Below, piece after piece: positions 1 through 63,091 of a DNA stretch of 64,000 bases. Below the pieces are notes generated by a model. That model did not search any database. It had not been told where the DNA came from and saw nothing but the letters and a program-made list of their open reading frames with translations. A program made the translations under genes and the position numbers. The DNA is from a virus, in the IMG/VR virus record IMGVR_UViG_3300005528_000059, positions 1-64,000 of that record; one strand, written 5' to 3'. The first letter of the stretch is position 1. Each line of letters begins with the position of its first letter.

Positions 1-1626
1 GCTGACAGCGCCTTAGCAACTAGAGCGACAACTCTTGAAGCTCAGATGGCAAACACCTCTAGCTCAGGACTTCAGTCACGTATTGCAACAGAAGAAACTG
101 CCCGCGCTTCGGCTGACAGCACCTTAGCTTCACAAATTACAGTCCTAACAGCAAGCGTCAACGGTAATCCAAACCTGTTTCCATACCCTACGCCTATAGC
201 CAATCGAACACCCTCGCAATTGGGTTGGGCTGGAACACCTATAACATCAACTTTTTCCTCTGGAGTTGGTGGTTTAGTGTACTATAGAGCACGAGCCTCC
301 GGTGGTTCTGCAATGAACGAAGGTTATAGTTTTGATTTGCCTGAAGCTATGACGTTTAGTACGGGGCAACAGTTTACTTTTTCGTGCTACGGCTACGGCG
401 GAACTGCCACCGTTGGGGACAGACTGTACGCCTTCCTCGATTTTAGGTCTGCTGATAATTCAACAAGTCTCTATATAAGCCAAACTATGACTTTGAATAG
501 TGGAGGCACTAGACAGTCTGCAGTTGGTACTTTCCCTGGATCGTTTACTAATGGAAGACTTCGTGTAGTATTCATACGCGAGTGGCCTTCATCGGGTAGT
601 TACCAAGATTTAGTGTTCAACATGATCAAGGTAGAGTGTGGGCCGATCGCTACTGCTTTCACGAATTCTGCCCAAGTTGCACAATTCTCCTCGGTGAGTG
701 TAGATGCCTATGGACGCGCTTACGCTATCTCCGGAACTCAGACGGAAGTAAACGGTCGAAAAGGTGGTTTCGTTATGGACAACAATGGTGTCCTAACGAA
801 TTTTCAAATTACAGCTGATGATTTCCGGATTTACCAATCGGTTGGTGGATCGAACATTGTTCCGTTCCGTGTCGTGGGGGGCCAAACTCAGATTAACGAT
901 GCACTTGTTAGAACACTTAATGTCGTTCCAGATGGAGGTGGTCCTTCACATCGCGTACAGTTAAGACCTAACTCAGTGTCAGGAGCAGACGGAGCCTCAT
1001 TTACATTTTCTCCCGCCTATGGTGGTATTCCACTGATCCGACCTGTTGTTCTGCAACCTCCTGCGCTTGCTGCTAACGAGACTTATGACATTTCAGCTAC
1101 TAATTTGTCCGCATCAGGCTTTACGATTAGAGCTAAGAAATTCACAGCAGGAACCCCAACAGCACAGTCCTCGGGTGCTGGTTCAAATGTGGGAGGTACT
1201 CCACAGTGGCGTGCTCATAAGCCTACTACAGCCGATGCAGACGGTAATAGCTACACTTACTCCTGGACAGCGACTCTCGATAAAGTTTCTCAAGAGTTCT
1301 TTGGAGGCTCATCTTGGTATGCAGAATACTACGGCGAGTTTGACGTGTACTACAATTCAGGGTCTAGTTGGGTGGTCGCCTATTCTGTCGGTGTCGCATT
1401 TGAAAGTTTCTATGGAACTACTCCACCAGCAACTGTCACAGGTCAAGCAGCGACTTCTACAGCAGTGCTTCCGGCAATCGGCCAACACGGGTCCCAAGAA
1501 TTCGGGTTACACCCAACAGTCGGGGCAATCACAGCTTTTGCTGGGGTAAATTACACGACAACAAGTCAGTCGAGTGTCGTATCTTTGCCAGGAAACTTTA
1601 CATTTGATATTTTCGCGCCAACGTAA
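1..1626 (+). CDS. Tail-tip / host-specificity protein, C-terminal part (gpJ/DUF1983-like)
   Basis: The reading frame is open from base 1, so the gene begins upstream; the ATG at 46 is only an internal Met. The first ~50 codons carry the alternating pattern (ATEETARASAD, LASQI) typical of the region before DUF1983 in siphovirus tail-tip proteins. A beta-rich, lectin-like stretch follows, then a DUF1983-like segment near codons 240-310 (GRKGGFVMDNNG, FQITADDFRIY), then a Gly/Ser/Thr-rich end. In lambda-type phages this protein sits at the tail tip and contacts the receptor. It is followed directly by a lipoprotein and the lysis genes. The family is fairly sure; the receptor cannot be told. Confidence 0.8.
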   Translation, partial: ADSALATRATTLEAQMANTSSSGLQSRIATEETARASADSTLASQITVLTASVNGNPNLFPYPTPIANRTPSQLGWAGTPITSTFSSGVGGLVYYRARASGGSAMNEGYSFDLPEAMTFSTGQQFTFSCYGYGGTATVGDRLYAFLDFRSADNSTSLYISQTMTLNSGGTRQSAVGTFPGSFTNGRLRVVFIREWPSSGSYQDLVFNMIKVECGPIATAFTNSAQVAQFSSVSVDAYGRAYAISGTQTEVNGRKGGFVMDNNGVLTNFQITADDFRIYQSVGGSNIVPFRVVGGQTQINDALVRTLNVVPDGGGPSHRVQLRPNSVSGADGASFTFSPAYGGIPLIRPVVLQPPALAANETYDISATNLSASGFTIRAKKFTAGTPTAQSSGAGSNVGGTPQWRAHKPTTADADGNSYTYSWTATLDKVSQEFFGGSSWYAEYYGEFDVYYNSGSSWVVAYSVGVAFESFYGTTPPATVTGQAATSTAVLPAIGQHGSQEFGLHPTVGAITAFAGVNYTTTSQSSVVSLPGNFTFDIFAPT

Positions 1627-5024: not shown

Positions 5025-6551
5025 ATGACTGTACTCGTTGATCTTGCTGGCGTTAGCACTACAAGCACCGGAACAGGCGGACCGTTGGACTTAGGGCCAG
5101 CGCTCGTTGGACATCGGACTCTTGCAGCAGCTAACGCGGCTGGTCAACTACCTAATGGCTCAACACTCTCGTACACGATCCTCAACAATAACCAAGCTGA
5201 GACTTGTACGGGAGTCTATGACAGTACCTTAAATACGTTAACTCGTGTTTTTCGTAATAGTACGACGGGTTCTGCGCTTAATTTGACAGGCACTTCAGAA
5301 ATCATAATTGCAGCCAACGCGGATGATTTCTCAACTTCTATCAGTTATGTACCTTCAACTAGGGCTTTGTCTAGCTCTACGGGCAATGGTTTTACTTTTC
5401 CAATCTTTAGTTCGACTTTAGCAGGTCTTGTTCCCCTTTCCGGAGGAGGCACATCCCTGTTCTTAAGAGCAGATGCCAGTTGGTCTAGTGCAGTGACTTC
5501 CGTTGGAGGTACAGGTTCAGTTTCTGGAATAACATTAACTGGCTCAGTTACAGAAAGCGGTAACTTGACACTGGAGGGAACTCTGTCAGTTGTCGGAGCT
5601 AATTTTGGCTCTCAGACGGCTAACCGAGTTTTCGCGGCACCAAACGGCTCAGATGGAAATCCGTCATTTAGAGCCTTGGTCGCGGCTGATATTCCAACGC
5701 TAAATCAATCTACTACGGGCTCGGCAGCTACCCTCACTACACCGCGAGATATCGCGATGACTGGTGACGTAAGTTGGAGTGTCAGCTTTAACGGCTCAAC
5801 CAATGTGACAGCGGCTGGAACGATCGCTAATGACGCCGTAACTTATGCCAAGATGCAGAACGTGACAGCGAATAGCGTGCTAGCTCGCGCAGCAGCAACA
5901 GACGGCGATGTCAGTGCGATAGCCTTGGCTGCGTCGCAACTGTTCGGTCGTGGCGCTACAGGTGATCTCACTGCTATTACGCTGGGTTCCGGACTTTCCA
6001 TGTCTGGTAGCACGTTGAATGCCGTGAGCTCAGCGGGTAAGCAGACATTGTATATTCCTGCTGAGTATATGAAGTCACGAGTAACGAACGGTCCATCAGC
6101 AGGATTTATTGAAACTGTGAATAATAGGATCAATCTCATAACGCTTGACTTTGACTCTATTACACAAGAGTTCGCACAGTTCCAAGTTGCCATGCCTAAG
6201 TCATGGGATGAAGGCACTGTGACTTTTGAGCCCATTTGGTATCATCCAAGCGCGACAACTAACTTCGGGGTGGTGTGGTCTCTAGCAGGCGTTGCCCTGT
6301 CTGACACCAATGCGCTGGACACGGCGTTTGGCACGGCGGTGCAGGTCACAGACACAGGCGGTACGACGAACGCGCTATACGATGGCCCTGAGAGTGCTGC
6401 GGTTACGATTGGAAATGTGCCTGCTGAAAATGACTATCTGATGTTTCAAATTGCTCGAGTGCCTGCTGACGCGGCTGACACATTGGCCACCGATGCTCGA
6501 CTACTTGGTATCCGTCTATTCTACACGACCAACGCAGGGAACGACGCCTGA
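5025..6551 (+). CDS. Tail fibre-like protein
   Basis: 508 residues. The N-terminus contains ALVGHRTLAAANAAGQLPNG followed by TLTRVFRNSTTG, a pattern common at the virion-attachment end of phage tail fibres. The middle is a Gly/Ser/Thr-rich shaft with FLRADASWSS and TANRVFAAPNGSDGNPSF segments, also typical of fibres. The C-terminal ~160 residues form a more compact beta domain. It overlaps the next fibre gene by TGATG. Likely a host-contact or side fibre. Confidence 0.8.
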   Translation: MTVLVDLAGVSTTSTGTGGPLDLGPALVGHRTLAAANAAGQLPNGSTLSYTILNNNQAETCTGVYDSTLNTLTRVFRNSTTGSALNLTGTSEIIIAANADDFSTSISYVPSTRALSSSTGNGFTFPIFSSTLAGLVPLSGGGTSLFLRADASWSSAVTSVGGTGSVSGITLTGSVTESGNLTLEGTLSVVGANFGSQTANRVFAAPNGSDGNPSFRALVAADIPTLNQSTTGSAATLTTPRDIAMTGDVSWSVSFNGSTNVTAAGTIANDAVTYAKMQNVTANSVLARAAATDGDVSAIALAASQLFGRGATGDLTAITLGSGLSMSGSTLNAVSSAGKQTLYIPAEYMKSRVTNGPSAGFIETVNNRINLITLDFDSITQEFAQFQVAMPKSWDEGTVTFEPIWYHPSATTNFGVVWSLAGVALSDTNALDTAFGTAVQVTDTGGTTNALYDGPESAAVTIGNVPAENDYLMFQIARVPADAADTLATDARLLGIRLFYTTNAGNDA

Positions 6552-9211
6552 TGCTGCGGTTAAATACTCTTTTAGGAGTAGGTGGGCGTCCGATAATCAA
6601 TGACAATGCTTGCCTAGCTTCTCCAATATTCATTGATCCGTCTATTATCGGTACTATGTGGCAAGAGATCACTGGTACGTCTGGCACAGCCGTAGTTGTT
6701 GACGGTCCTGTTGGCTCTATTAGAAACCGAGGCACGCTTGGCGGTATAGCAAGAGCCACGAGCACAGGGCGGCGACCTATACTTAGAAACTCCGGTGGAC
6801 AGTTTTGGCTAGAAATATCTACCGCTACACAATCAGAATTGTCACTTTCCTTCACCTCCCAAGTAACTCCCGTTATTTGGTGGGCAAATGGAATTCGCTA
6901 TGAATCCACGTCTTGGGCTTGGACAGGTTTTGGTTCTTGGAAAACAGAAGCTAGCGCAGATGCAGACTGGGTTGTGGGCGAGCATGTAATAGGGGGTCGC
7001 GTAAACAACACACCATCAATACTTATTACCAGAGGATCTTCAAACAGTAACTCGCAACCTCTCCCGTACTCCCAAGACCACGTCGTTACATTCCTAAGTT
7101 CAAGTTCTGCTAGGGTACTTAGACGAGATTTGCTCCCCTCAAACTCAACAGCAAGCAGCTACGGTAATCACATAGTAGACATAGTGCGGTTTTTTACTCG
7201 ACCCACTGGGGAGCACACTGACGGTCGTTTCTACGGCTTTGTGGCTCGATTCACGCAGCCATCAGTGGCTGAAGAAGAACAAATGATACGATCTATAGCG
7301 CGCCGACAAGGACGTAATCTGAAGTCGTTCGACCTTACATCGATCTCACCAACAATTGGAGCTATTGAAGGTGGAACACCTATAACACTGACAGGTTTAG
7401 GTTTTCCTGCTGACCCTATTGTTACCATCGATAATGTCCCCGCAACAAATGCCGTGAGAGTGAGTTCTACTTCAATAACGGCTGTCACTCCGGCGGGAAC
7501 TTTTGGAAACAAAAATGTCACACTCTTATCAAATGGTGAAGTTAGTACACTAGCCTCTGCGTTTGATTATGGTGTTTTTATACTAGACACTCTGACAGCT
7601 ACCGCTGCTTACAGTACCAGACAAGTTCGCAATGCTTACACGGGTTTCTGCATCCGAGTACGCAGATCAAACGATAATGTAGAATTAAATATCGGATTTA
7701 CTGTTAGCGGACAATTGGACACTGCTGCCTTGCTCGATCATTGCGGTGCAAACAGCGGATTTGTTACGAGATGGTACGACCAGTCCGGCAATGGATTGCA
7801 CTTGGTCCAGGACACTACAACATCACAACCACGTATTGTGAACGCTGGCGTCTTAGAAACACTTGGTGGTGTTCCCGCGATTGTATTCGACGCAACAGAT
7901 GACAGACTAGAAATAGGGACTTGGGGAGACTTATCACAACCCTATACTCAAAACGGTGTTATCAGGACAGCCACCTCATATCCCGGTTTTCCTGCTATGG
8001 TCGGTCCTTCAAATGACTCAACATACACAAATGCTGTAACCTACATAGAGACTAATTTTCGCACTATCGGCCCTTTCACTGATACCAACGGTCCTAGACT
8101 ACCTGTCACAACGACTGAACGACTTGTCTTTACCTCATCATTTGACGGTAATAACACCAATTTTGCTAAAAACGGTGTAGTCACGGCGAATGGCTGGGTA
8201 GGTGGAGGTACTCTTTCCGGTGTGCGCTTGGCGGGTCCGGGAGTGACATATCAGGAAATAACCATATTCGGGAATGTTTTGTCTGTCGCTAATCGTCAAA
8301 TGCTCGAAGCTAATCAAATTGCGTACTTCGGTGTCCCTAGTTTGCCTTGGTCTGGCGTTAATTTACTTGCCGGAGTGAACAATTATGTTTCGGTCGCAGC
8401 AAACGGTACAACTTGGGTGGCGGTCGCGGACTCAACAAACCAAGCAGCGAGATCGACCGACAATGGTGTTACGTGGTCGGTCGTCACGATGACAGCCAAC
8501 AGAATTTGGGAAGATACAGCAGCAAACGGCACAACTTGGGTAGCTGTAGCCTTCGAAGCTGATGCTAACCGTTCTACTGATAACGGCGCATCTTGGTCTA
8601 ATGTTTCGTTGCCATTGTTTGCGGCTTGGCGCGCAGTTGCAGCAAACGGCACAACTTGGGTAGCTGTAGGAACTAACATTAGCCAATGTATTCGATCCAC
8701 TGACGATGGCGCAAACTGGGTAACAGTGAACCTGCCTGCCAATCGTTTTTGGTTCAATGTCACAGCAAACGGTACAACTTGGGTAGCTCTTGCAGGTAAC
8801 GGAACAGACCAATCTGCACGATCAACTGATAACGGAGCATCTTGGACGGCAATCACATTGCCCGCTTCCAGAGATTGGCGCGGTCTGGCGGTCAACGGCA
8901 CAACTTGGGTAGCAGTTGCCACAGGAAATACAAACCAAGCCGCCCGCTCTACTGATAATGGCGCTACATGGTCGGCAATCACTTTGCCTTCTGCTCGAAA
9001 CTGGAGGTCTGTCGCCGCAATAGGTACAACTTGGATAGCGGTAGCGGAGAGCAATGGCAATGAAGCAGCCCTGTCTGTTGACAATGGTGTAACTTGGTCG
9101 TCTGTTGCCTTACCAAGTGCACGAAATCGACGCGCCGTTGCAGCCAACGCGACAACATTTGTGACGGTCCCTTATGGCAATACTGACGCTGCACGAGCAG
9201 TAGTGAGCTAA
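6551..9211 (+). CDS. Large modular fibre/adhesin: IPT + lectin-like + Asp-box propeller
   Basis: 886 residues in modules. Residues ~1-260 are an unrecognised beta-rich head. Residues ~263-340 are an IPT/TIG Ig-like fold (ISPTIGAIEGGTPITLTG). Residues ~345-600 are a concanavalin/arabinofuranosidase-like jelly roll (AYSTRQVRNAYTGFCIRVRR, WYDQSGNGLHL). From ~607 to the end come seven ~40-residue repeats with NGTTWVAVA and STDNGxxW (Asp box), fitting a seven-bladed beta-propeller. Probably a receptor- or glycan-binding virion protein. Confidence 0.85.
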   Translation: MLRLNTLLGVGGRPIINDNACLASPIFIDPSIIGTMWQEITGTSGTAVVVDGPVGSIRNRGTLGGIARATSTGRRPILRNSGGQFWLEISTATQSELSLSFTSQVTPVIWWANGIRYESTSWAWTGFGSWKTEASADADWVVGEHVIGGRVNNTPSILITRGSSNSNSQPLPYSQDHVVTFLSSSSARVLRRDLLPSNSTASSYGNHIVDIVRFFTRPTGEHTDGRFYGFVARFTQPSVAEEEQMIRSIARRQGRNLKSFDLTSISPTIGAIEGGTPITLTGLGFPADPIVTIDNVPATNAVRVSSTSITAVTPAGTFGNKNVTLLSNGEVSTLASAFDYGVFILDTLTATAAYSTRQVRNAYTGFCIRVRRSNDNVELNIGFTVSGQLDTAALLDHCGANSGFVTRWYDQSGNGLHLVQDTTTSQPRIVNAGVLETLGGVPAIVFDATDDRLEIGTWGDLSQPYTQNGVIRTATSYPGFPAMVGPSNDSTYTNAVTYIETNFRTIGPFTDTNGPRLPVTTTERLVFTSSFDGNNTNFAKNGVVTANGWVGGGTLSGVRLAGPGVTYQEITIFGNVLSVANRQMLEANQIAYFGVPSLPWSGVNLLAGVNNYVSVAANGTTWVAVADSTNQAARSTDNGVTWSVVTMTANRIWEDTAANGTTWVAVAFEADANRSTDNGASWSNVSLPLFAAWRAVAANGTTWVAVGTNISQCIRSTDDGANWVTVNLPANRFWFNVTANGTTWVALAGNGTDQSARSTDNGASWTAITLPASRDWRGLAVNGTTWVAVATGNTNQAARSTDNGATWSAITLPSARNWRSVAAIGTTWIAVAESNGNEAALSVDNGVTWSSVALPSARNRRAVAANATTFVTVPYGNTDAARAVVS
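8371..9200 (+). repeat. In-gene tandem repeats encoding Asp-box propeller blades
   Basis: About 120-126 bp units encode NGTTWVAVA...RSTDNGxxWxxxxLPxxR. Six units carry the Asp box and the seventh is a half unit. The copies beginning at 8521 and 8641 share an identical stretch of about 29 bases exactly 120 bp apart, so slippage or recombination could change blade number. Confidence 0.85.
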
Positions 9212-11242: not shown

Positions 11243-12670
11243 ATGCCTACGACAAACGGTAATCGCCCAATCCTAGACCTGAAGCGTTGGGAATACTGCG
11301 CTCCTGCTCCTGCCGCGACTGTGGCGGGGTCTATGATCTCATCTAGTCGCCACTATCGACAGCAACAGCTTTTCATTCCCAGTGTCACTACGGCTTTCAT
11401 CTATCAGCCGAACGAGGATGGCTGGATTGCTATTCCCTCGCCCGCTTTACCTGCTGCTTCCCTGATCGCAGGCGCAGCGGCAACTTCTGGTGCTGCAAGC
11501 ATCGGCAACACGGTCGGCGCGGCCAGTTTGACCGCAACTGCGGGTACGTTGAATAGCTTCACTACCAACCAGCCTCTGGCGCGAGACCTACGCGGCTACA
11601 AAGTTCATATCATGGCCGGACCTAATGCTGGTGCGGTTCTTGACATTGTGAGCAACACTGTCGGCGCTAACGCGGTCATCACTGTACCGACGCAAGGGAA
11701 TGCGTTTTCGAACGCGACTGTCTACCGTCTGCTTACTCCTGTTTGGTATGTCAGCGCGGGCGGCACAATTGCTGCTGGTTCGTTCCGCAAATACTGCTTT
11801 GCTACGAACACTTGGACTTCGCTGGCCGTCCTGCCTGCGACGATTGCAACCGACGCAAAGCTGGTCGCCACGCCTTCAATCGTCGATGGCGACTTTAAGG
11901 CTTTTGCGACTGGCACGATCACAAGCGCGACAAGCACCACGGCGGTCAACAGCGTCAAAGCTTGGGCGACCAATCAATGGGTCAACAGCCAAATTCGCAT
12001 CACTGGCGGCACAGGTGCGGGCCAAGTCCGCACGATCACAGCAAATACTGGCACCACTCTCACTGTCGCAGCTTGGACAGTCACGCCCGACACCACTTCG
12101 ACGTATGCAATCGAGGGGAATGATAACTTCCTCTATTTGCTCGGCAACAACGCGGTCACCATGTACCGCTACGACATTGCGGCTAACACTTGGTCCACCC
12201 TGTCGCCTGTTGCGGCTCGTGCAGCAGCTCCCGGCGCTGGGATGTCAGCCCACTGGGTCCACACTTCTCTTGAGGCTGACTTCAACAATGAAAGCGCCAT
12301 CATGGCAGGTCGCTACATCTACAGCTTCCAAGGTGCTGCATCAGCCAACCTGCATCGGTATGATATTGCAGGCAACACATGGGCAACGATTGCCTATGCT
12401 CCTGCTGTCGAAACCTTCACGACAGGCACCAAGTATGCCCTGCATCATGATAACCTCTACATTCAAAAAGAGGCGACAGGACGCTGGTTTGTGTTCGATA
12501 CTGCCCGAAGCAATATGAGCGCGTTTGGCACCATGCTCTATCCGCAGGGTGCGGCTTTGGTAGGGGATACGGCTTTTGACGTGGCCTACCAAGATGGGGA
12601 AACCGAGATCTTTTACGTCTACATGCTACTCAACACTTCTCCAATACTGTTAAGGCAGATGGTGATCTAA
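11243..12670 (+). CDS. Kelch-like beta-propeller virion protein
   Basis: 475 residues. Kelch-type blade endings recur: RKYCFATNTWTSL, YRYDIAANTWSTL, HRYDIAGNTWATI, with Gly-rich turns between. Ala/Thr/Gly-rich insertions occupy the first half. Base composition is clearly richer in G+C than flanking genes (for example about 67% over 11461-11520 against about 45% over 13021-13080), suggesting later acquisition. Likely an exposed binding protein of the virion. Confidence 0.75.
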   Translation: MPTTNGNRPILDLKRWEYCAPAPAATVAGSMISSSRHYRQQQLFIPSVTTAFIYQPNEDGWIAIPSPALPAASLIAGAAATSGAASIGNTVGAASLTATAGTLNSFTTNQPLARDLRGYKVHIMAGPNAGAVLDIVSNTVGANAVITVPTQGNAFSNATVYRLLTPVWYVSAGGTIAAGSFRKYCFATNTWTSLAVLPATIATDAKLVATPSIVDGDFKAFATGTITSATSTTAVNSVKAWATNQWVNSQIRITGGTGAGQVRTITANTGTTLTVAAWTVTPDTTSTYAIEGNDNFLYLLGNNAVTMYRYDIAANTWSTLSPVAARAAAPGAGMSAHWVHTSLEADFNNESAIMAGRYIYSFQGAASANLHRYDIAGNTWATIAYAPAVETFTTGTKYALHHDNLYIQKEATGRWFVFDTARSNMSAFGTMLYPQGAALVGDTAFDVAYQDGETEIFYVYMLLNTSPILLRQMVI

Positions 12671-20585: not shown

Positions 20586-21407
20586 ATGACAAAAGAAATG
20601 AGAATTTATATTCCCAGTCGGGGAAGAGCCGACCCACGGCTTCAATACACCTCAAGAATCCTTAACGATGCAGGTATCGTTCATTACCTAGTAGTTCGCC
20701 CAGACGAGATGGAAGCATACCAAATAATGCTCAATCATCATGCCGATGAATTTCGTCACACAAAACTTCTCGATCGTCCAGAGTCCTGCACGAACTTGTC
20801 ACAGACACTTAGCCACTTGATTCGAGTATCCGCAGGGATTGGTGTGAACTGTTTGCTGCTAGATGACGATCTTCGTTTCAGCAGACGTATTAGCCAGAAA
20901 GGTCCAGAACTCCGTAAGGCTGACCCTCAGGACATGCCTGAGCTTATCGCACGCTTAGCAGCACTTCTTGATGGTGACGTGAAGATGGCTGGTATTTCTG
21001 CCCGTACTATGAACCAAAATCGCTATCCTGATACGGTTCAATACTGTGGTCGCCAGATGCAAGCTCACGCTATTGACACAGAGTTTTTCGTTGATGAGGG
21101 TATCGATCCTGCACGAGTTATCTGTAAGTCTGATTTTCACATGACGCTTTGCGTGTTGGAAGCGGGTTATCGTAACGCAATCATTTGTGATTACACCGTG
21201 GACCAAGCTTCTGGCTCGAACGCCAAAGGCGGAGTTTCTACCTACCGCACTGCTGAAGTTATCAATGAGGGTGCAGAGCTGCTAAAACAACTGCATCCCG
21301 ACTACGTTAAGATCGTAGAAAAGGCTACCGTGTGGAAAGGCATGTCTGGCATCCGTAAGGAAGTCAACATCGGTTGGAAAAAAGCTTACAAGGAGGCTAA
21401 GTTATGA
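20586..21407 (+). CDS. GT-A-like glycosyltransferase, TAGT-like, probably for modified base
   Basis: 273 residues. It opens with MRIYIPSRGR, the nucleotide-sugar strand-loop of GT-A folds, and has a DxD-type metal motif in LLLDDDLRF (Asp93-95). A later conserved stretch reads GGVSTYRT. This resembles the TET/JBP-associated glycosyltransferases predicted to add sugars to modified bases. It overlaps the ThyA-fold gene by ATGA. The acceptor is inferred from neighbours to be a hydroxymethyl-type pyrimidine in DNA. Confidence 0.75.
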   Translation: MTKEMRIYIPSRGRADPRLQYTSRILNDAGIVHYLVVRPDEMEAYQIMLNHHADEFRHTKLLDRPESCTNLSQTLSHLIRVSAGIGVNCLLLDDDLRFSRRISQKGPELRKADPQDMPELIARLAALLDGDVKMAGISARTMNQNRYPDTVQYCGRQMQAHAIDTEFFVDEGIDPARVICKSDFHMTLCVLEAGYRNAIICDYTVDQASGSNAKGGVSTYRTAEVINEGAELLKQLHPDYVKIVEKATVWKGMSGIRKEVNIGWKKAYKEAKL

Positions 21408-22465
21408 AGACTATGTTAGAATCTACTCATCCCGATTACGGTCTTTTGTTTATCGCACGAGATGCAATGAACAATTCAGGTTGGATCAAGCGCGATAGTC
21501 GTGCTGGTTTCACAGTTGAGTTTGAAAGCCCTGTGATCGTCAAAAACAGCCGTTACTATATTTCGTCTTCGCCTGTTCGAGATGCTAATCCGTTCTTCCA
21601 TTTGGCTGAGTCCCTTTGGATGCTTGCTGGTCGCCAGGACTTGGACTTTCTTCTTATCTTCAACTCCACCTTCGGCCAGTTTTCTGACGATGGCAAGTTT
21701 GTTCGCGGTTCGGCCTATGGTTATCGCTGGCGTGAATTCTTTGGCAAAAATCAGATTGCTAGTATTATCAATGAGTTACAGAATACTGCGTCGCGTCGTG
21801 CTGTTCTAACACAGTGGTCTGTCGAAGACCTTAACATTGACTCCAAGGACGTTCCCTGCAACACTCAAACGTACTTCCTTGTTCGCAATGGCAAGTTAGA
21901 CATGACTGTAGTCAACCGCTCAAACGATTTGATCTATGGAATGTACGGAAGCAACATTGTTCACTTCTCGATTTTGCATGAGTATATCGCTTCTGCGCTG
22001 AACATCGAGAAAGGCGATTACTACCAAATGTCAAATTGTTTGCACATCTACACGGATAACTCTGTGTTCCAAAAGATGCAAAGCAACTATCGTGCTGACT
22101 TCTCTGCTCCCGAAGTCGACAACGATTTGGCAGGCTATTGTGATAATCCTTACGGCTCATTGGTCCAAGCACCAATTGGTGACGCTGTGCAGTTCATGTC
22201 TGACCTCACTGAATTTTTTAATAAATTCGATGAGTTGCGTAGTACTGCCCCCGATCGTGATGCTCTGGAAGATTTGGGCCTAGCTCTTGGGCAAATCCGA
22301 GATACGACTTCCCCTTTGCTTCAAGATTTCTATCACATGGGCTTAGCCTGGATTTCTTTCAAGCGCAAACAGAAGCCTATTTGGTTGCCGAACGACGGTG
22401 GCACTATCTGGCGTTTCGTCAGTCAGAATTACCTGACACGTCGCAACAGGGAGATTCTTTCTTGA
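21404..22465 (+). CDS. Thymidylate synthase-fold enzyme (TS or dUMP hydroxymethylase)
   Basis: 353 residues, longer than E. coli ThyA (264). Key features: AYGYRWR (104-110), the phosphate-binding Arg pair SRR (130-132), the catalytic Cys152 in DVPCNTQ, RSND (172-175) and Asn184 in YGSNIVHFS. Two points set it apart from ordinary ThyA: the residue after the catalytic Cys is Asn instead of His, and the loop before Asn184 is one residue longer. In a hypermodification cluster a dUMP hydroxymethylase is as likely as dTMP synthesis. AAGGAGG precedes the ATG. Confidence 0.88.
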   Translation: MKTMLESTHPDYGLLFIARDAMNNSGWIKRDSRAGFTVEFESPVIVKNSRYYISSSPVRDANPFFHLAESLWMLAGRQDLDFLLIFNSTFGQFSDDGKFVRGSAYGYRWREFFGKNQIASIINELQNTASRRAVLTQWSVEDLNIDSKDVPCNTQTYFLVRNGKLDMTVVNRSNDLIYGMYGSNIVHFSILHEYIASALNIEKGDYYQMSNCLHIYTDNSVFQKMQSNYRADFSAPEVDNDLAGYCDNPYGSLVQAPIGDAVQFMSDLTEFFNKFDELRSTAPDRDALEDLGLALGQIRDTTSPLLQDFYHMGLAWISFKRKQKPIWLPNDGGTIWRFVSQNYLTRRNREILS

Positions 22466-23022
22466 TACAGAATCTAGCACACTTAGAGGATCGTTTGGAT
22501 ACGGGTGGTGTAACTCGCTACCACGCTGCCCCCGACGTAGAACCTCAGAATATTGCCGAACACTCTTGGAGGGTCTGTCAGACCCTCCTTTTCATTTATC
22601 CAGAGGCTTCTGCTGACTGCATGCGGTATGCCCTTGCCCACGACATGGATGAACGTTTCGTAGGGGATATTCCTTACTTTACAAAAGCAAAATTAGACAT
22701 GTCGGTTGTCGAAGCCGAAGCAGACAAACTGTTAGACAACTTCATGGACTCCACGGATGTCCGTGGAACAAAACTTCAGAAGCACGAAAAACTACTTGTT
22801 GATTTCTGTGATCGATACGAGCTAACCGTTTACTGCCTTAGCCAAAGGACACGCGGGGGACGCCGTATAGCGCTCTCGGGTATTAGTATATGCTTGCGTA
22901 CCCTAGACGAGTTTAGAGCTATAGCTATTAGCGCCCCTGTTCTACGAACGCAAATCTATGCGTTAGCACGCACTATGGAGTTGCTAGTGTACGAGGCAAA
23001 TCTATCTCTAAACAAAAATTGA
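22462..23022 (+). CDS. HD-domain 5'-deoxynucleotidase (YfbR-like)
   Basis: 186 residues from a TTG at 22462 that overlaps the stop of the ThyA-fold gene; AGGGAGA lies upstream. The HD motif is clear: TRYHAAPDVEPQNIAEHSW (His34) and ALAHDMDE (His60-Asp61), with DIPYF next. YfbR-type enzymes remove the 5' phosphate of deoxynucleoside monophosphates. In phages with altered thymine such enzymes can lower a competing nucleotide pool. Substrate not provable here. Confidence 0.85.
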   Translation: MIQNLAHLEDRLDTGGVTRYHAAPDVEPQNIAEHSWRVCQTLLFIYPEASADCMRYALAHDMDERFVGDIPYFTKAKLDMSVVEAEADKLLDNFMDSTDVRGTKLQKHEKLLVDFCDRYELTVYCLSQRTRGGRRIALSGISICLRTLDEFRAIAISAPVLRTQIYALARTMELLVYEANLSLNKN

Positions 23023-29169: not shown

Positions 29170-30654
29170 ATGAACGCTGTTCGTCAAGTAAGTATGATAG
29201 CGGCACTTCGTGAAGCGGCTTTGCGAAAGGCCGCTAGCGAAAATCCAGCTGACTATTGTCGCTACGTGCTAGAAGTCGAACCTGCTGAGCATCACATATT
29301 GATGCTTAATGAGCTGAACAGTGTTATCGAGGAGATGTTAAAAGGTCGCAGCGCCATGCGCTTGATGATCTTAGCTCCTCCTGGAAGTGCTAAATCAACT
29401 TATACGTCACATGGATTTGCTTCCTATGCAATGGGAAGACTTCCTGCGGGTTATAACATCGCAGTGGGTACGCACACTGATGGCTTCTCGAAATCATGGA
29501 GTCGTAAAGTTCGTAACACCTGTCGATCACGCAGACACTTGAATGTGTTCCCTAACTCGGGGGTTAGCAAAGATCACGCTGCTGTTCAGGAATGGTCAAC
29601 ACTCGATAATAAAGAGTTCTTCGGTAAAGGTGTAGGCGGGACGATCACTGGTAAGCGTGTAGACCTTTTGATTCTGGACGACTTAATCAAAGGCGAGAAG
29701 GCAGCTAACTCCAAGGCTGATCGTCGCACAGTTATTGATTGGTACCTCACTGACGTATATACACGATTAAAGCCTGGAGCATCTATTGTCATCGTTAACA
29801 CACGCTGGCATGAAGAAGACCTTCCAGGATATCTAATCGAGCAGATGGAAAACGGCGTCGGCGAGCCTTGGAAGATTCTTAAACTTCAAGCACTTTGCAC
29901 CGATCCTGAAAACGACCCAATGAAACGCCAAGTCGGGGAGGTTCTCTGGCCTGGATGGCAACCTTTGGAAGAAATCCTGCGCATCCGCGATAAGTCTGGT
30001 ATGAGCACTCGGGTATTCGATTGCTTGTATCAACAGGAGCCTAAGTCCAAGGAAGGTTCGATAGTTCTACGTAAATGGTTCCTCACCTACACAGACGAGG
30101 AGCTACGTGTAGCACTTTCACATCCTAGGTCGCGTCTGTATATCAGTATAGATACCGCCGACACTAAAGATGCTAGAAATGACCCGACAGTTGCCTTAGT
30201 TATCCTGGAGCACGAAGGACGATCTTATCTGCTGAAAGAGTATCGAGAACGAAAAGAGTTCAACGAACTCAGCAAAGATATAAAGAGCCTCATTCGAGAA
30301 ATGACTCTGAAGTATAAGAAGCCTACTGCTATCCTCGTAGAAGGTAAAGGTGGCGGCTTAGCTATCATCTCTGACTTGAAGAACGGTGTTAACGTTCCGG
30401 TCATTAAAATCAACCCTAACGAAATCGGTGATAAAGAGTTCCGCTTTGACAAAGCTACACCTTACATCGAATCTGGGGCGTTCCTGCTACCTGATAAAGA
30501 CTTGCCTTGGGTTGATGCTTACTTAGACGAATTAACGACTTTCCCAGCTTCCCGTAACGATGATCGAGTCGACTCAACCTCGCAATATATCAACTATATT
30601 CAGAATAAGCCAAAGAAACGGCGTTCAACGGGCAGGCGCACTGCCCACGGGTAA
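29170..30654 (+). CDS. terL: Terminase large subunit
   Basis: 494 residues. ATPase: Walker A APPGSAKST (69-77) and Walker B LLILDDL (166-172). Nuclease: ISIDTADTKDARNDPT (Asp328), then DDRVDSTSQ near 460. These are the T4/lambda-type packaging ATPase and headful or cos nuclease centres. The terminase lies far from the virion genes seen at the window start, next to the replication block. Basic tail KPKKRRSTGRR. Confidence 0.96.
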   Translation: MNAVRQVSMIAALREAALRKAASENPADYCRYVLEVEPAEHHILMLNELNSVIEEMLKGRSAMRLMILAPPGSAKSTYTSHGFASYAMGRLPAGYNIAVGTHTDGFSKSWSRKVRNTCRSRRHLNVFPNSGVSKDHAAVQEWSTLDNKEFFGKGVGGTITGKRVDLLILDDLIKGEKAANSKADRRTVIDWYLTDVYTRLKPGASIVIVNTRWHEEDLPGYLIEQMENGVGEPWKILKLQALCTDPENDPMKRQVGEVLWPGWQPLEEILRIRDKSGMSTRVFDCLYQQEPKSKEGSIVLRKWFLTYTDEELRVALSHPRSRLYISIDTADTKDARNDPTVALVILEHEGRSYLLKEYRERKEFNELSKDIKSLIREMTLKYKKPTAILVEGKGGGLAIISDLKNGVNVPVIKINPNEIGDKEFRFDKATPYIESGAFLLPDKDLPWVDAYLDELTTFPASRNDDRVDSTSQYINYIQNKPKKRRSTGRRTAHG

Positions 30655-38943: not shown

Positions 38944-39395
38944 ATATGAATTTGGTCATGCTCATGGGCAGGGCTGGTAAAGATGCAGAACGTATTTCAA
39001 TTAGCGATAACTTCTCGTACGTGAAGTTCAGCTTGGCTACTTCTGAGCGATGGCTAGACAAAGCTTCTGGGGAGTGGAAAGAGAAAACTCAATGGGCGAA
39101 CATCGTTGTTCGTAATGACCATTTGATGGAAACTGCGATGAAGAAAGTGACCAAAGGAACTTATCTGATGGTTCATGGAACGTTAGAAACTCGCAGCTAC
39201 GAGAAAGATGGAAAAACGAACTATGTTACTGAAGTAGTGATTCCAAAGTTTGGTGGGGTCCTTAATGTCATCACAGCTAAAGAACAATCTTCGTCGAGCA
39301 GCGGGGACCGAGATCATTTTCCTTCGGCTCCTCCTGCTACTCCTTCAAAGAAAGGCTATCCGTACAATACGCTGGACGACGATATCCCATTTTAG
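38937..39395 (+). CDS. ssb: Single-stranded DNA-binding protein
   Basis: 152 residues. The OB-fold (1-110) follows bacterial SSB: MNLVMLMGRAGKDAE, VKFSLATSERW, EKTQWANIVV, GTYLMVHGTLETRSYEKDGK. A Ser/Pro linker leads to the acidic tip NTLDDDIPF, which recruits replication and repair proteins in Gram-negative bacteria. Its start codon and ribosome site are locked in a hairpin. The stop codon's last base is the first base of the tRNA. Confidence 0.96.
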   Translation: MADMNLVMLMGRAGKDAERISISDNFSYVKFSLATSERWLDKASGEWKEKTQWANIVVRNDHLMETAMKKVTKGTYLMVHGTLETRSYEKDGKTNYVTEVVIPKFGGVLNVITAKEQSSSSSGDRDHFPSAPPATPSKKGYPYNTLDDDIPF

Positions 39396-39470
39396 GCTCA
39401 ATAGCTCAGTGGATAGAGCATCCGCCTTCTAAGCGGACGGTCGCAGGTTCGAATCCTGCTTGAGTCGCCA
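39395..39470 (+). tRNA. tRNA-Arg (anticodon UCU)
   Basis: 76 nt, all arms pair: acceptor GGCTCAA with TTGAGTC (one G-U), D arm GCTC/GAGC, anticodon stem TCCGC/GCGGA with loop CTTCTAA, T arm GCAGG-TTCGAAT-CCTGC. CCA is encoded. It reads AGA (and AGG by wobble), codons that are rare in many Gram-negative hosts and used in this phage. It starts on the last base of the ssb stop codon, so the two are one transcript. Confidence 0.97.
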
Positions 39471-53391: not shown

Positions 53392-54141
53392 ATGGAAAGA
53401 AAACTTAGCAGTGAGAGCTTGAAATTACTATGTCAAGCTTCTTTTTCCTGTAGGGAAGAAATGCAGCATTTGAACGATAAGAATATGGCACTGCGTCAGC
53501 ATAGTGCTGAGATAGCAAGTAACTTAGAAAAATACCAAACATCGCTAGCTGCGGGTGTGAACAGTGACGGTTTTCACTATGTTTATTTTCAAAATTCAAC
53601 TATCTTTGACAAGCCTTCTATGCTTTCGCCTTCTATGTTGTTGTCAACTATCAGCGAGAGTCGCAAGGCGTTGGTTACTAACAGGCTAGAGATCGAAGAT
53701 AACGAGCGTCAGATCGATGAGCTCGACCGTCTCATGGAATTGTATGACGAAGATGCAATTGCTTTTGGCATTGTACCGGAGCCCACTTCAGAGGCTTCTG
53801 CTGCTGTAAATGAGTTACTTGCTACAATCGAAAATCCTCTTGGGGATTTGCTCAATATCAAAACGCGCATCCTCGTTAAAGGTATCGCTTGTGATGTGCA
53901 GGAAGTTTTCCTGAAGGTGCAAGAGATCGTAGTTAGTCTTGTCAGTATGGAAAAACAGCAAGTTGAAGCTGATACGTTTCTTCATGACGACGTGGGTATG
54001 GACGACTTAGACTTCGTTGACCTCATACTCCGCCTGCAAGAAGAGTTTGATTGCTGCATTCGCACGGCTGATGTCCATGGCTGGCGAACAGTAGGCGATG
54101 TCGTGCGCACTGTCATGAACAACTCAAAGGTGGCTCACTAA
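53392..54141 (+). CDS. Coiled-coil protein with acyl-carrier-like domain lacking the serine
   Basis: 249 residues. Residues ~20-130 are mostly coiled coil. The last ~80 residues follow acyl carrier protein: a first helix, then FLHDDVGMDDLDFVDLILRL (196-215) and QEEFDCCI, then helices III-IV. In ACP the motif is D-S-L with the phosphopantetheine serine; here it is D-D-L (Asp205), so it cannot be loaded in the normal way. It may bind ACP partners such as SpoT or lipid enzymes as a decoy. Function inferred. Confidence 0.78.
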   Translation: MERKLSSESLKLLCQASFSCREEMQHLNDKNMALRQHSAEIASNLEKYQTSLAAGVNSDGFHYVYFQNSTIFDKPSMLSPSMLLSTISESRKALVTNRLEIEDNERQIDELDRLMELYDEDAIAFGIVPEPTSEASAAVNELLATIENPLGDLLNIKTRILVKGIACDVQEVFLKVQEIVVSLVSMEKQQVEADTFLHDDVGMDDLDFVDLILRLQEEFDCCIRTADVHGWRTVGDVVRTVMNNSKVAH

Positions 54142-59697: not shown

Positions 59698-60010
59698 TTT
59701 CGAGATCACAGATAGAATTCTTGATCGAGCTATCGTAGCTTATGAGTTGATTAATGATTCACCGCATGGTGTCAAACGAGCTCCTATGTCTGCCGCTCTA
59801 GATTCAGCTATATATGATAGTGGTTTAGTTCAGGAAGTTCTTAACCTGCGTGAAGCCTTAGAGTTTTATGCTGATCCAAACGCTTGGAATCAACCACCTG
59901 TTAAGACGAAGCAAGGTTGGTTTACTGTGGAATATGAGAACCAAGCATCGAAGATGCAGGTTGACCGTGGCAAACGTGCTCGTGAAGCTCTTAAGGAGAG
60001 TGTGCTATGA
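59687..60010 (+). CDS. Unknown protein of REALExYAD type
   Basis: 107 residues. The helix NLREALEFYADPNAW is a motif found in many small phage proteins (R/K-E-A-L-x-x-Y-A-D). Basic C-terminus (MQVDRGKRAREALKE). Overlaps both neighbours. Confidence 0.75.
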   Translation: MRSDFEITDRILDRAIVAYELINDSPHGVKRAPMSAALDSAIYDSGLVQEVLNLREALEFYADPNAWNQPPVKTKQGWFTVEYENQASKMQVDRGKRAREALKESVL

Positions 60011-60303
60011 ATAGCGAAAAAGATTATTGGGCGATGTTCGCTGCTGCGGGGATTACTGCGGGGTGGACTGAACGTGCTTCAGCCGAGACGGCTGATAGTA
60101 TGGTATGTTCTATGGCTGAGCGCTATGGGCCTCTGGACGACAAGTCTGAGGACGTAGCTGCACTTCAGGAAGAAGTTGCTCGCCTTCGGTTAGCTTTGTT
60201 CAAATATGGCATGGCTGACGCCATGGAAGAGGCTCCACCTGAGTTACAGAATACAATCCAAAGAGCAATTGACATAAGTAGAAAGAAGCTGGGCTATGAG
60301 TAG
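60007..60303 (+). CDS. Unknown helical protein
   Basis: 98 residues, helical (DYWAMFAAAGITAGWTERAS; ALQEEVARLRLALFKYGMAD). Overlaps the capsid-like gene by 8 bases, so the two are coupled. It could be a partner of that protein, but this is a guess. Confidence 0.73.
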   Translation: MNSEKDYWAMFAAAGITAGWTERASAETADSMVCSMAERYGPLDDKSEDVAALQEEVARLRLALFKYGMADAMEEAPPELQNTIQRAIDISRKKLGYE

Positions 60304-60970
60304 CTTCTCGCTCCGACAATTGGCTTTAGTTACGTCTGCTGAGGTAGTTGGCACAGATGAAATGTGTGCTGTTATTCCGCTTGGGAATGATTTACGCAAA
60401 TACTCTGAGATGATGTTTGAAGCTATAGAGCGACGTAAGTTTATCCGTGGGAATGGTGTGGCTAATCCGAAAGGTGTCCTGGCTGAAGAAGCTCTTCCAA
60501 ACGCTATGCGTGTTCACGACGAGCGCCCCTATACTCTGGGATACATAACGACAGGTGTTGCTGGTCACTTCTCCATGAATGACAACGCTGATATATTTAT
60601 CACCCTCATCCACACTCTGGACGCACGCTATCGTCGATATGCATCATTCGTGGTGAGCACTGATGTAATGGATTTTCTCAAGCGTATCAAAGATAGCAGT
60701 GGTCAGATGATATGGCGACCAGCAATGACTGTAGGCGATCCTGAGATGCTTTACGGGTTTCCTGTTTACGAGAGCGAAGATATGCCTTTGATGAAGGAAG
60801 CCCGCTTCTCGGCCATGTTTGGTGATTTCGTTGCGGGTTATCTGATTAAAGATAGTCCTACACGCTACGAAGAAGACAAAGCAAATCGAGAGTTTATAGC
60901 TACCAAGCGAGTTGATGGCTACGTGAAAAACTTCAACGCAATCAAGCTTTTAAAATTCGCAGAGGAGTGA
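60296..60970 (+). CDS. Shortened HK97-type major capsid-like protein
   Basis: 224 residues. The second half of the HK97 fold is recognisable: RGNGVANPKGVL (51-62), DADIFITLIHTLD-like helix near 98-109, YRRYASFVVSTDVMDFLKRI (112-131), KDSSGQMIWRP (132-142), LYGFPVYESEDMP (152-164), MFGDFVAGYLIKD (174-186), and RVDGYVKNFNAIKLLKF (205-221). The N-arm, scaffold domain and E-loop region of a full capsid protein (about 300-400 residues) are missing. It lies among small early-type genes, not with virion genes. Role unknown. Confidence 0.82.
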   Translation: MSSFSLRQLALVTSAEVVGTDEMCAVIPLGNDLRKYSEMMFEAIERRKFIRGNGVANPKGVLAEEALPNAMRVHDERPYTLGYITTGVAGHFSMNDNADIFITLIHTLDARYRRYASFVVSTDVMDFLKRIKDSSGQMIWRPAMTVGDPEMLYGFPVYESEDMPLMKEARFSAMFGDFVAGYLIKDSPTRYEEDKANREFIATKRVDGYVKNFNAIKLLKFAEE

Positions 60971-60972
60971 GT

Positions 60973-61302
60973 ATGTCTGAAGAACGAGTAATAACCGACG
61001 AAGAAATCTTAGCAGCTTGTGTGCTGAAGTTTGAGTGCTATGATTTCGACGAGCCTATCACACTTCGATATTGGTTCAAACAAGTTTTGTTCAGCCTCAT
61101 TAAAGAAGGTGAGACTTTCAATGGCAAGCGTCCATTCGGCAATAGCGGTTGGGAAGCTTATCTGGGTATTCCGTTCGTGATGGCCGGTCTTCTGGAGAAC
61201 GAGGACGACAGCGAGTTTCCAGATGAGGCTTATCCAAAGTATCCTTCTGAAGCGCGCTTGCTCCTGCTTCGTGCAATCAACTTGATGGTGGGGCCGTTAT
61301 GA
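60973..61302 (+). CDS. Unknown acidic protein
   Basis: 109 residues from the ATG at 60973 (GAGGAG upstream). Helical with acidic stretches (ENEDDSEFPDEAYPKYPSEA). Coupled to the capsid-like gene before it. No family recognised. Confidence 0.73.
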   Translation: MSEERVITDEEILAACVLKFECYDFDEPITLRYWFKQVLFSLIKEGETFNGKRPFGNSGWEAYLGIPFVMAGLLENEDDSEFPDEAYPKYPSEARLLLLRAINLMVGPL

Positions 61303-61664
61303 GGGATGATCGAGGAAAAGAGTTCCAGGAGAGCCATGAGTTACCTCGTAAGGACGACACCGTTACTATCAAAGCAAAAGTGCGTTCTTTCACAGGCACT
61401 AAAGAGGGTCTGTGTGCGCTTGAAATCGTAGCTCTCGACTATTCGAGTCACACAGCTTCGTATATCAAGCAGGCTACTACTATTCGTCTTCCCTTGGAGG
61501 ATATCGTTGCTTTAGTTGATCGTCCTGTTACGGATAAAGAAATCATTGATGAACTTAAGAAAACGATCAACGAGCAAGTCGATGAAATAGCCGAGCTTAA
61601 ATCTAGGAACGAAAAACTAGAGGCGAACTACGCTAACTTGTATAACAGCACGAGGACCAGATGA
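61299..61664 (+). CDS. Unknown protein with C-terminal coil
   Basis: 121 residues: beta-rich first part (DTVTIKAKVRSFTGTKEGLC) and a coil (KKTINEQVDEIAELKSRNEK). Overlaps both neighbours by ATGA. Confidence 0.74.
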   Translation: MRDDRGKEFQESHELPRKDDTVTIKAKVRSFTGTKEGLCALEIVALDYSSHTASYIKQATTIRLPLEDIVALVDRPVTDKEIIDELKKTINEQVDEIAELKSRNEKLEANYANLYNSTRTR

Positions 61665-62754: not shown

Positions 62755-62920
62755 AGGGCGGTGCTAAATGAGGGCCTAGGGTGCGTTGTGGCGCTTGGGT
62801 AGCTTGGCGCGTGGGTAGCCTAGGGCTTTGTATCGCCCGTAGTCTAGGAAGCGTTTGTAGTTGGTAGAGGTAGGGTGGGCGTGGTAGTTTGGCGCGTGGC
62901 TTGCAGTTTAGGAGAATGTT
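62755..62920 (+). other. GC-rich spacer with repeated GGCGCxTGGGTAGC words
   Basis: 166 bases. TTGGGTAGC, TGGCGCGTGG and GGGTAGCCTAGGGCTTTG recur within it; GGGCTTTG...GCCCGTAGTCTAGGAAGC is shared with the spacer at 48195. G-rich on the + strand. No gene seen. Confidence 0.6.
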
Positions 62921-63091
62921 GTGCAGAAATACTATGATGAGCTCAGGCAAGAAAATGAGCGTCTCCGTACTGAGAACGAGAAACTCGTAGCTGAGAATAT
63001 CCAGCTCGTGGCTCAAAATTACTTACTTCAAACGACTCGAGAAATTCTCCTTGCAGAACTTCGTGAGTGCAATCGACCAAACATAGATTAA
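62921..63091 (+). CDS. Leucine-zipper mini-protein
   Basis: 56 residues from a GTG with AGGAG 7 nt upstream. Leu is at every seventh place: 8, 15, 22, 29, 36 and 43, and Asn fills the matching a positions 12, 19, 26 and 33. This is a perfect two-stranded zipper without a basic region. It likely forms homodimers or blocks a host coiled coil. No family recognised. Confidence 0.72.
   Translation: MQKYYDELRQENERLRTENEKLVAENIQLVAQNYLLQTTREILLAELRECNRPNID

Follow-up and report, generated by a model that had tools for sequence, protein, structure and literature searches.

The gene at 60296-60970 (plus strand) of the analysed window, the 64,000-nucleotide stretch formed by positions 1 to 64,000 of IMG/VR record IMGVR_UViG_3300005528_000059, encoded a 224-residue, N-terminally truncated HK97-fold capsid protein (PF05065, RcGTA-type), and was carried by a phage whose own capsid belonged to the P22 type. 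The product, called here the half-capsid protein, was judged to be a domesticated non-self capsid fragment. The best explanation, held tentatively, is that a foreign truncated PF05065 gene has been kept as an accessory gene whose product poisons or misdirects the capsomers of rivals.

Identity and fold of the half-capsid protein

The open reading frame was intact over its 224 codons. The half-capsid protein matched PF05065 Phage_capsid (E 7.5e-32; 111.3 bits, curated cut-off 24.2) over the stretch of the profile from position 104 to its C-terminal end at 280, and TIGR01554 major_cap_HK97 (E 3.4e-39; 135 bits, cut-off 27.5) over positions 213-385 of 385. Its top sequence match in the PDB was the capsid of the Rhodobacter capsulatus gene transfer agent, Rcc01687 (E 1.9e-30; residues 202-384). 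An AlphaFold2 model built from a 47-sequence alignment had a mean pLDDT of 81.9, and a Foldseek search with this model ranked the RcGTA capsid first (E 9.8e-18; 34-35% identity in the alignment), followed by a cf-PICI capsid and then by T5-like and HK97 capsids. The HK97-fold assignment is secure. The first-pass annotation had recognised an HK97-type fold in these 224 residues, and both profile search and structure prediction agreed with it through clear matches; the contrary outcome, no HK97-fold match, did not occur.

Residues 1-27 (60296-60376, plus strand) corresponded to a highly diverged remnant of the second E-loop strand and P-domain entry and were modelled as disordered (pLDDT < 50). 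The P-domain spine helix was formed by residues 31-51 (60386-60448, plus strand), modelled as a helix and aligned with the major capsid protein (MCP) family. Residues 52-190 (60449-60865, plus strand), mostly the A-domain, which lies at the capsomer centre, were the best preserved part by pLDDT and by retained MCP sites. The C-terminal P-domain strands followed (residues 191-224; 60866-60967, plus strand), with a four-residue deletion in a hairpin when aligned with MCPs. The pLDDT was mostly 90-97 for residues 81-180, about 75 for residues 71-80, and about 79-94 in the C-terminal P-domain strands. Over residues 1-40, mean identity to MCPs was 18%, against 54% among the MCPs themselves.

Extent and rarity of the truncation

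The scaffold domain, N-arm and E-loop of a full-length MCP were missing from the half-capsid protein, which in alignment with full-length capsid proteins started near the second E-loop strand. The truncation reported earlier was thus upheld and its limit adjusted: the N-arm and scaffold part were lacking as described, and the start fell at about the second E-loop strand, although residues 1-27 were modelled as disordered. When the source record, which is linear and 69,408 bp long, was scanned over its full length with HMMs in six frames, the C-terminal capsid half appeared once (E 1.1e-51), and the N-terminal half gave nothing above background in any frame; the N-terminal-half HMM found 80 of 80 controls. 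A split or frameshifted full-length capsid gene was rejected on this absence.

The more than 200 relatives examined were all longer (open frames of at least 276 aa), except one cut by a contig end. This exception, locus L089 (212 aa), was among the 79 scored viral loci. In the best 80 genome loci the shortest frame had 276 aa, open at a contig end, and the next 285 aa; none of the 74 matches in a sample of 289 genomes, drawn at class level around a Caulobacteraceae genome, had an open frame shorter than 323 codons, against 230 at the half-capsid locus. No standalone C-terminal capsid half was found in any of these three sets, and a truncated family common to other phages was not recovered, the best 80 loci of each collection and the 74 matches being longer. 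Patterns made from the single half-capsid protein returned no viral or genome relatives. The gene was present in one contig only, with neither a second copy nor a junction-spanning contig found. Given the short HK97-fold entries R4JJ97 (222 aa) and A0A8S5QHD5 (191 aa) in BFVD, other capsid halves may exist.

The carrier phage and its own capsid

Contig IMGVR_UViG_3300027793_000108 (54 kb) was 99.99-100% identical to window positions 1-29934 (29.9 kb) and reached 24.1 kb further upstream. On this extension the head-tail module was complete: its coat protein was full length (389 aa; PF11651 P22_CoatProtein, E 3.2e-24; phrog_283, E 6.1e-58), and it also included portal (phrog_145, E 7e-94), scaffold (phrog_206), connectors, tail terminator, tail tube, a 1679-aa tape measure and a 2092-aa J-type protein. 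The coat protein was identical on a third contig. No PF05065 match was obtained in IMGVR_UViG_3300027793_000108, and BLASTP of the half-capsid protein against the P22-type coat was not significant (E 2.6). The coat gene lay 15.9-17.0 kb before window position 1 and about 76 kb from the half-capsid gene on the linear map, in a joined length of about 93.5 kb. The virion block that had been placed some 46 kb away (window 1-15 kb) proved to hold tail tip, beta-propeller and fibre-type proteins and an endolysin, the head genes being upstream of the window.

The half-capsid gene was neither the only nor the main capsid gene of the genome, and the possibility that it was the only one, full length for its family, fell once the overlapping contig was seen to encode a P22-type coat of full length. 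It was likewise rejected as a remnant or paralogue of the phage's own capsid gene: because that capsid is P22-type (PF11651), without significant similarity, the half-capsid gene is foreign and not a degraded gene of the phage itself. Of the roles suggested in the first-pass annotation, a second form of the phage's capsid became unlikely with an own capsid of another family, and a capsid remnant was untenable for the phage's own gene and is disfavoured, though possible, for a foreign one.

The terminase large subunit (29170-30654, plus strand; phrog_38, E 6.4e-97) had its best isolate matches in Ruegeria, Citromicrobium and Rhodobacter phages (about 34%), and Alphaproteobacteria are the likely host group of the carrier phage. 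Near-identical pieces of this phage occurred in IMG/VR contigs (L007, L008/L104 and L105) under three metagenome ids, which makes the population a recurrent one.

Further features of the record were observed. Where the contig breaks, the gene for the J-type tail protein contained tandem repeats of 111 bp (window 1-128; 11918-12180 of contig L010), with more copies in the second contig than in the source record. Amid the tail genes, large proteins with TIG and sortilin/BNR-type propeller domains (6551-9211) and with Kelch repeats (11243-12670) were encoded, for which adhesion or decoration is possible. A row of a glucosyltransferase (phrog_842), a thymidylate synthase-type enzyme (phrog_5131) and a dATP triphosphohydrolase-like protein (20586-23022) suggests hypermodified, glucosylated phage DNA. 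A single tRNA-Arg (TCT) gene (39395-39470) marked the border of the small-gene region, and a 249-aa early-region protein (53392-54141) had a C-terminal acyl-carrier/phosphopantetheine domain (PF00550, E 2.8e-7). At 62755-62935, a noncoding, G-rich stretch in which GGTAGCTTGGCGCGTGGGTAGC-like units recur folded better than its shuffles (z -2.7) and had no Rfam match.

Genomic setting

The half-capsid gene belonged to a series of seven genes that overlap one another, with tiny, early-type neighbours. The stop of the upstream gene (60007-60303, plus strand; 98 aa, no convincing family match) overlapped its start by 8 nt, and the downstream gene (60967-61302, plus strand; 111 aa, GTG start; phrog_15618, E 2.5e-10) overlapped its end by 4 nt and was followed by another overlapping small open reading frame (61299-61664, plus strand; 121 aa). 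The small early-type setting and the coupling noticed earlier were in this way confirmed. Portal and protease genes, which flank the capsid gene in a head operon, were not alongside: small genes adjoined it, and the head genes lay elsewhere and were P22-type. No capsid-like open reading frame was found near the relatives of the downstream gene in 51 viral contigs, and a link of that gene with capsid fragments was rejected (0 of 51 loci). A promoter and terminator scan gave lower counts than in shuffles.

Relatives and origin

The best 80 genome matches of the half-capsid protein were alphaproteobacterial, two of them MAGs labelled just Proteobacteria. The top ones (Phycosocius, Hyphomonadaceae, Aquidulcibacter) lay in RcGTA-type clusters with TIGR02217 (Rcc01695 family) and TIGR02218 tail genes. 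In tblastn against phage and plasmid records, every match whose annotated neighbours or open reading frames were inspected was a capsid gene of full length in an ordinary head operon, and the best plasmid matches were again alphaproteobacterial. In one public record, MW202613.1 (locus L013, 4987-6639), a wrong-strand hypothetical protein was annotated over the apparent major capsid gene. A full-length relative was present in 68 of the 289 sampled genomes of the class, so the donor capsid family is common in the likely host group, and so are PF05065-type targets. Tree placement of the half-capsid protein was unreliable because its branch was very long. Although its nearest kin were in GTA clusters, the half-capsid gene was outside any such cluster, with no adjoining head genes. 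It is a foreign PF05065 gene of RcGTA/alphaproteobacterial type, acquired by a phage with a P22-type coat.

Conservation of the gene

The GC3 (0.44) and codon score of the half-capsid gene equalled those of the neighbouring genes, against GC3 values of 0.70-0.86 in four relatives. The protein kept 43 of 61 near-invariant MCP sites and had changed 18 (30%), a site being counted when at least 90% of the 43 capsid proteins compared conserved it; true capsid proteins kept at least 89% in a leave-one-out test. Retention was 23 of 28 sites in residues 52-190, 4 of 9 in residues 191-203 and 10 of 11 in residues 204-224, most losses falling in residues 1-51 and 191-203; the difference between residues 52-190 and the rest was not significant (p = 0.09). 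The spine-helix changes W32D, A42E and A48K could weaken a shared capsomer interface. At 3.97 changes per column, the end branch of the half-capsid protein far exceeded the median of 0.27. With 30% of residues changed, a neutral simulation left the frame open in 3.5% of runs, in a crude model which assumes that the residue changes came after truncation. We read this pattern as that of a protein probably freed from shell-building, with an A-domain that appears still constrained. Judged from its GC3 match, its overlaps of 4-8 nt and the sites kept in the A-domain region, the gene is probably maintained and not freshly decaying.

Alternative explanations

A foreign capsid fragment brought in by illegitimate recombination could be a neutral passenger that drifts without function. 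The very long branch, the lost near-invariant sites, the presence in one contig only and the occurrence of remnants in phages agree with this, but under neutral drift the frame seldom stayed open in the rough simulation, start and stop both overlap neighbours, codon usage is fully adapted to theirs and the predicted fold is confident, so we consider a passenger unlikely, though it deserves weight. The same overlaps, intact at both ends, and a codon usage like that of neighbouring genes and unlike that of relatives speak against a chimera of metagenome assembly, which, even with a single contig covering the stretch, has a very slight probability.

Other functions were weighed as well. Repurposing of the A-domain for a non-capsid task, as an adaptor or in DNA or protein binding, would suit the finding that residues 1-40 and the hairpin of residues 191-203, on the P-domain side in MCPs, were the most altered; with neither a fused domain nor a clue from context, it is improbable. 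Service in the phage's own virion, as a minor capsid or vertex protein, has a similarly poor chance: the half-capsid protein is an HK97-fold domain, and minor capsid proteins with this fold exist (e.g., T4 gp24), yet the own P22-type coat has no sequence similarity to it, the gene lies far from the coat gene amid early-type small genes, and it has neither N-arm nor E-loop with which to lock into a shell. The protein might instead modulate immunity, as bait for sensors of HK97-fold capsids (CapRel-like) or as a blocker of a host response linked to GTAs. Such a role is compatible with the accessory-type gene row, with the direct activation of CapRelSJ46 by a phage capsid protein (PMC9712102), and with the tie between a CARD-NLR-like defence-type system and GTA release in Caulobacter (PMC13236601), but PF05065 bait would not obviously mask an own capsid of another family and no capsid sensor is known for the host of the carrier, which leaves a decoy rather unlikely.

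Proposed function

The likeliest job of the half-capsid protein, somewhat short of an even chance, is the poisoning of PF05065-type capsids of prophages, GTAs or rival phages. In HK97-fold shells the A-domains surround the capsomer centre and the E-loop lies over the spine helix of the subunit next to it; in the phi12 capsid the capsomers are linked by the N-arm and, as suggested, by the scaffold domain (PMC8569155). Because its scaffold domain, N-arm and E-loop are missing, the half-capsid protein would be unable to join a lattice. A piece with A-domain and spine helix could enter a capsomer and not support the lattice, which amounts to a dominant-negative design. The protein would be made early in infection and would bind, through A-domain and spine helix, to PF05065-type subunits of induced prophages, host GTAs or co-infecting phages; being itself barred from the lattice, it would poison or misdirect the capsomers of the rival. 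The phage's own P22-type coat, having no detectable sequence similarity to it, should be spared. The interference with rival assembly suggested in the first-pass annotation stays a candidate role, and its putative targets narrow to RcGTA-type/PF05065 capsids, those of prophages and GTAs of Alphaproteobacteria and of rival phages.

The nearest analogue is Ccm, the capsid morphogenesis protein of the cos-type PICI SaPIbov5, a capsid homologue that is inserted in rival HK97-type capsids, occupies pentamers and forms no capsids alone (PMC8569155). Both are capsid homologues encoded outside the head operon by a different element; Ccm acts on the HK97-fold capsid of another element, as the half-capsid protein would. 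The analogy is incomplete because Ccm (355 residues) keeps scaffold domain, N-arm and E-loop, whereas the half-capsid protein has the C-terminal half only; Ccm also comes from a satellite and targets the helper of that satellite, while the phage that carries the half-capsid gene has a P22-type head of its own. The closest solved structure and sequence family are Rcc01687 (PDB 6tb9/6tsu) and its alphaproteobacterial GTA and prophage relatives, but Rcc01687 is full length (about 400 aa) and is encoded in a portal-protease-capsid operon, unlike the half-capsid protein with its first half missing and its early-type gene row. Tab and Tai are small phage- or satellite-borne proteins that stop the virion assembly of rivals, but they act on tails and, in the available parts of their reports, are not described as derived from the inhibited protein (PMC10884400, PMC11364771). 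P4 Sid, PLE TcaP and SaPI CpmAB/Rcm are element-encoded and interfere with capsids, as proposed here, but are scaffold-type or external and not HK97-fold domains (PMC12409344, in part). Among the papers covered by a literature search, none relevant to an inhibitory role of truncated phage capsid genes was found. If the preferred reading, poisoning of rival capsomers, holds, it would be a variant of known capsid-derived interference.

Implications

In a more speculative form, the domesticated non-self capsid half would be a dominant-negative weapon against GTA, prophage and rival-phage capsids in an alphaproteobacterial host, its carrier being protected by a capsid of another family, and would constitute a phage counterpart of the restriction derived from endogenous retroviral capsids. 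If true, phages would contest virion assembly using truncated copies of the capsid proteins of their rivals, and host GTAs would be a possible phage target. Isolated capsid halves lying in the accessory regions of phages, and usually called debris, may then inhibit capsid families that the carrier does not use.
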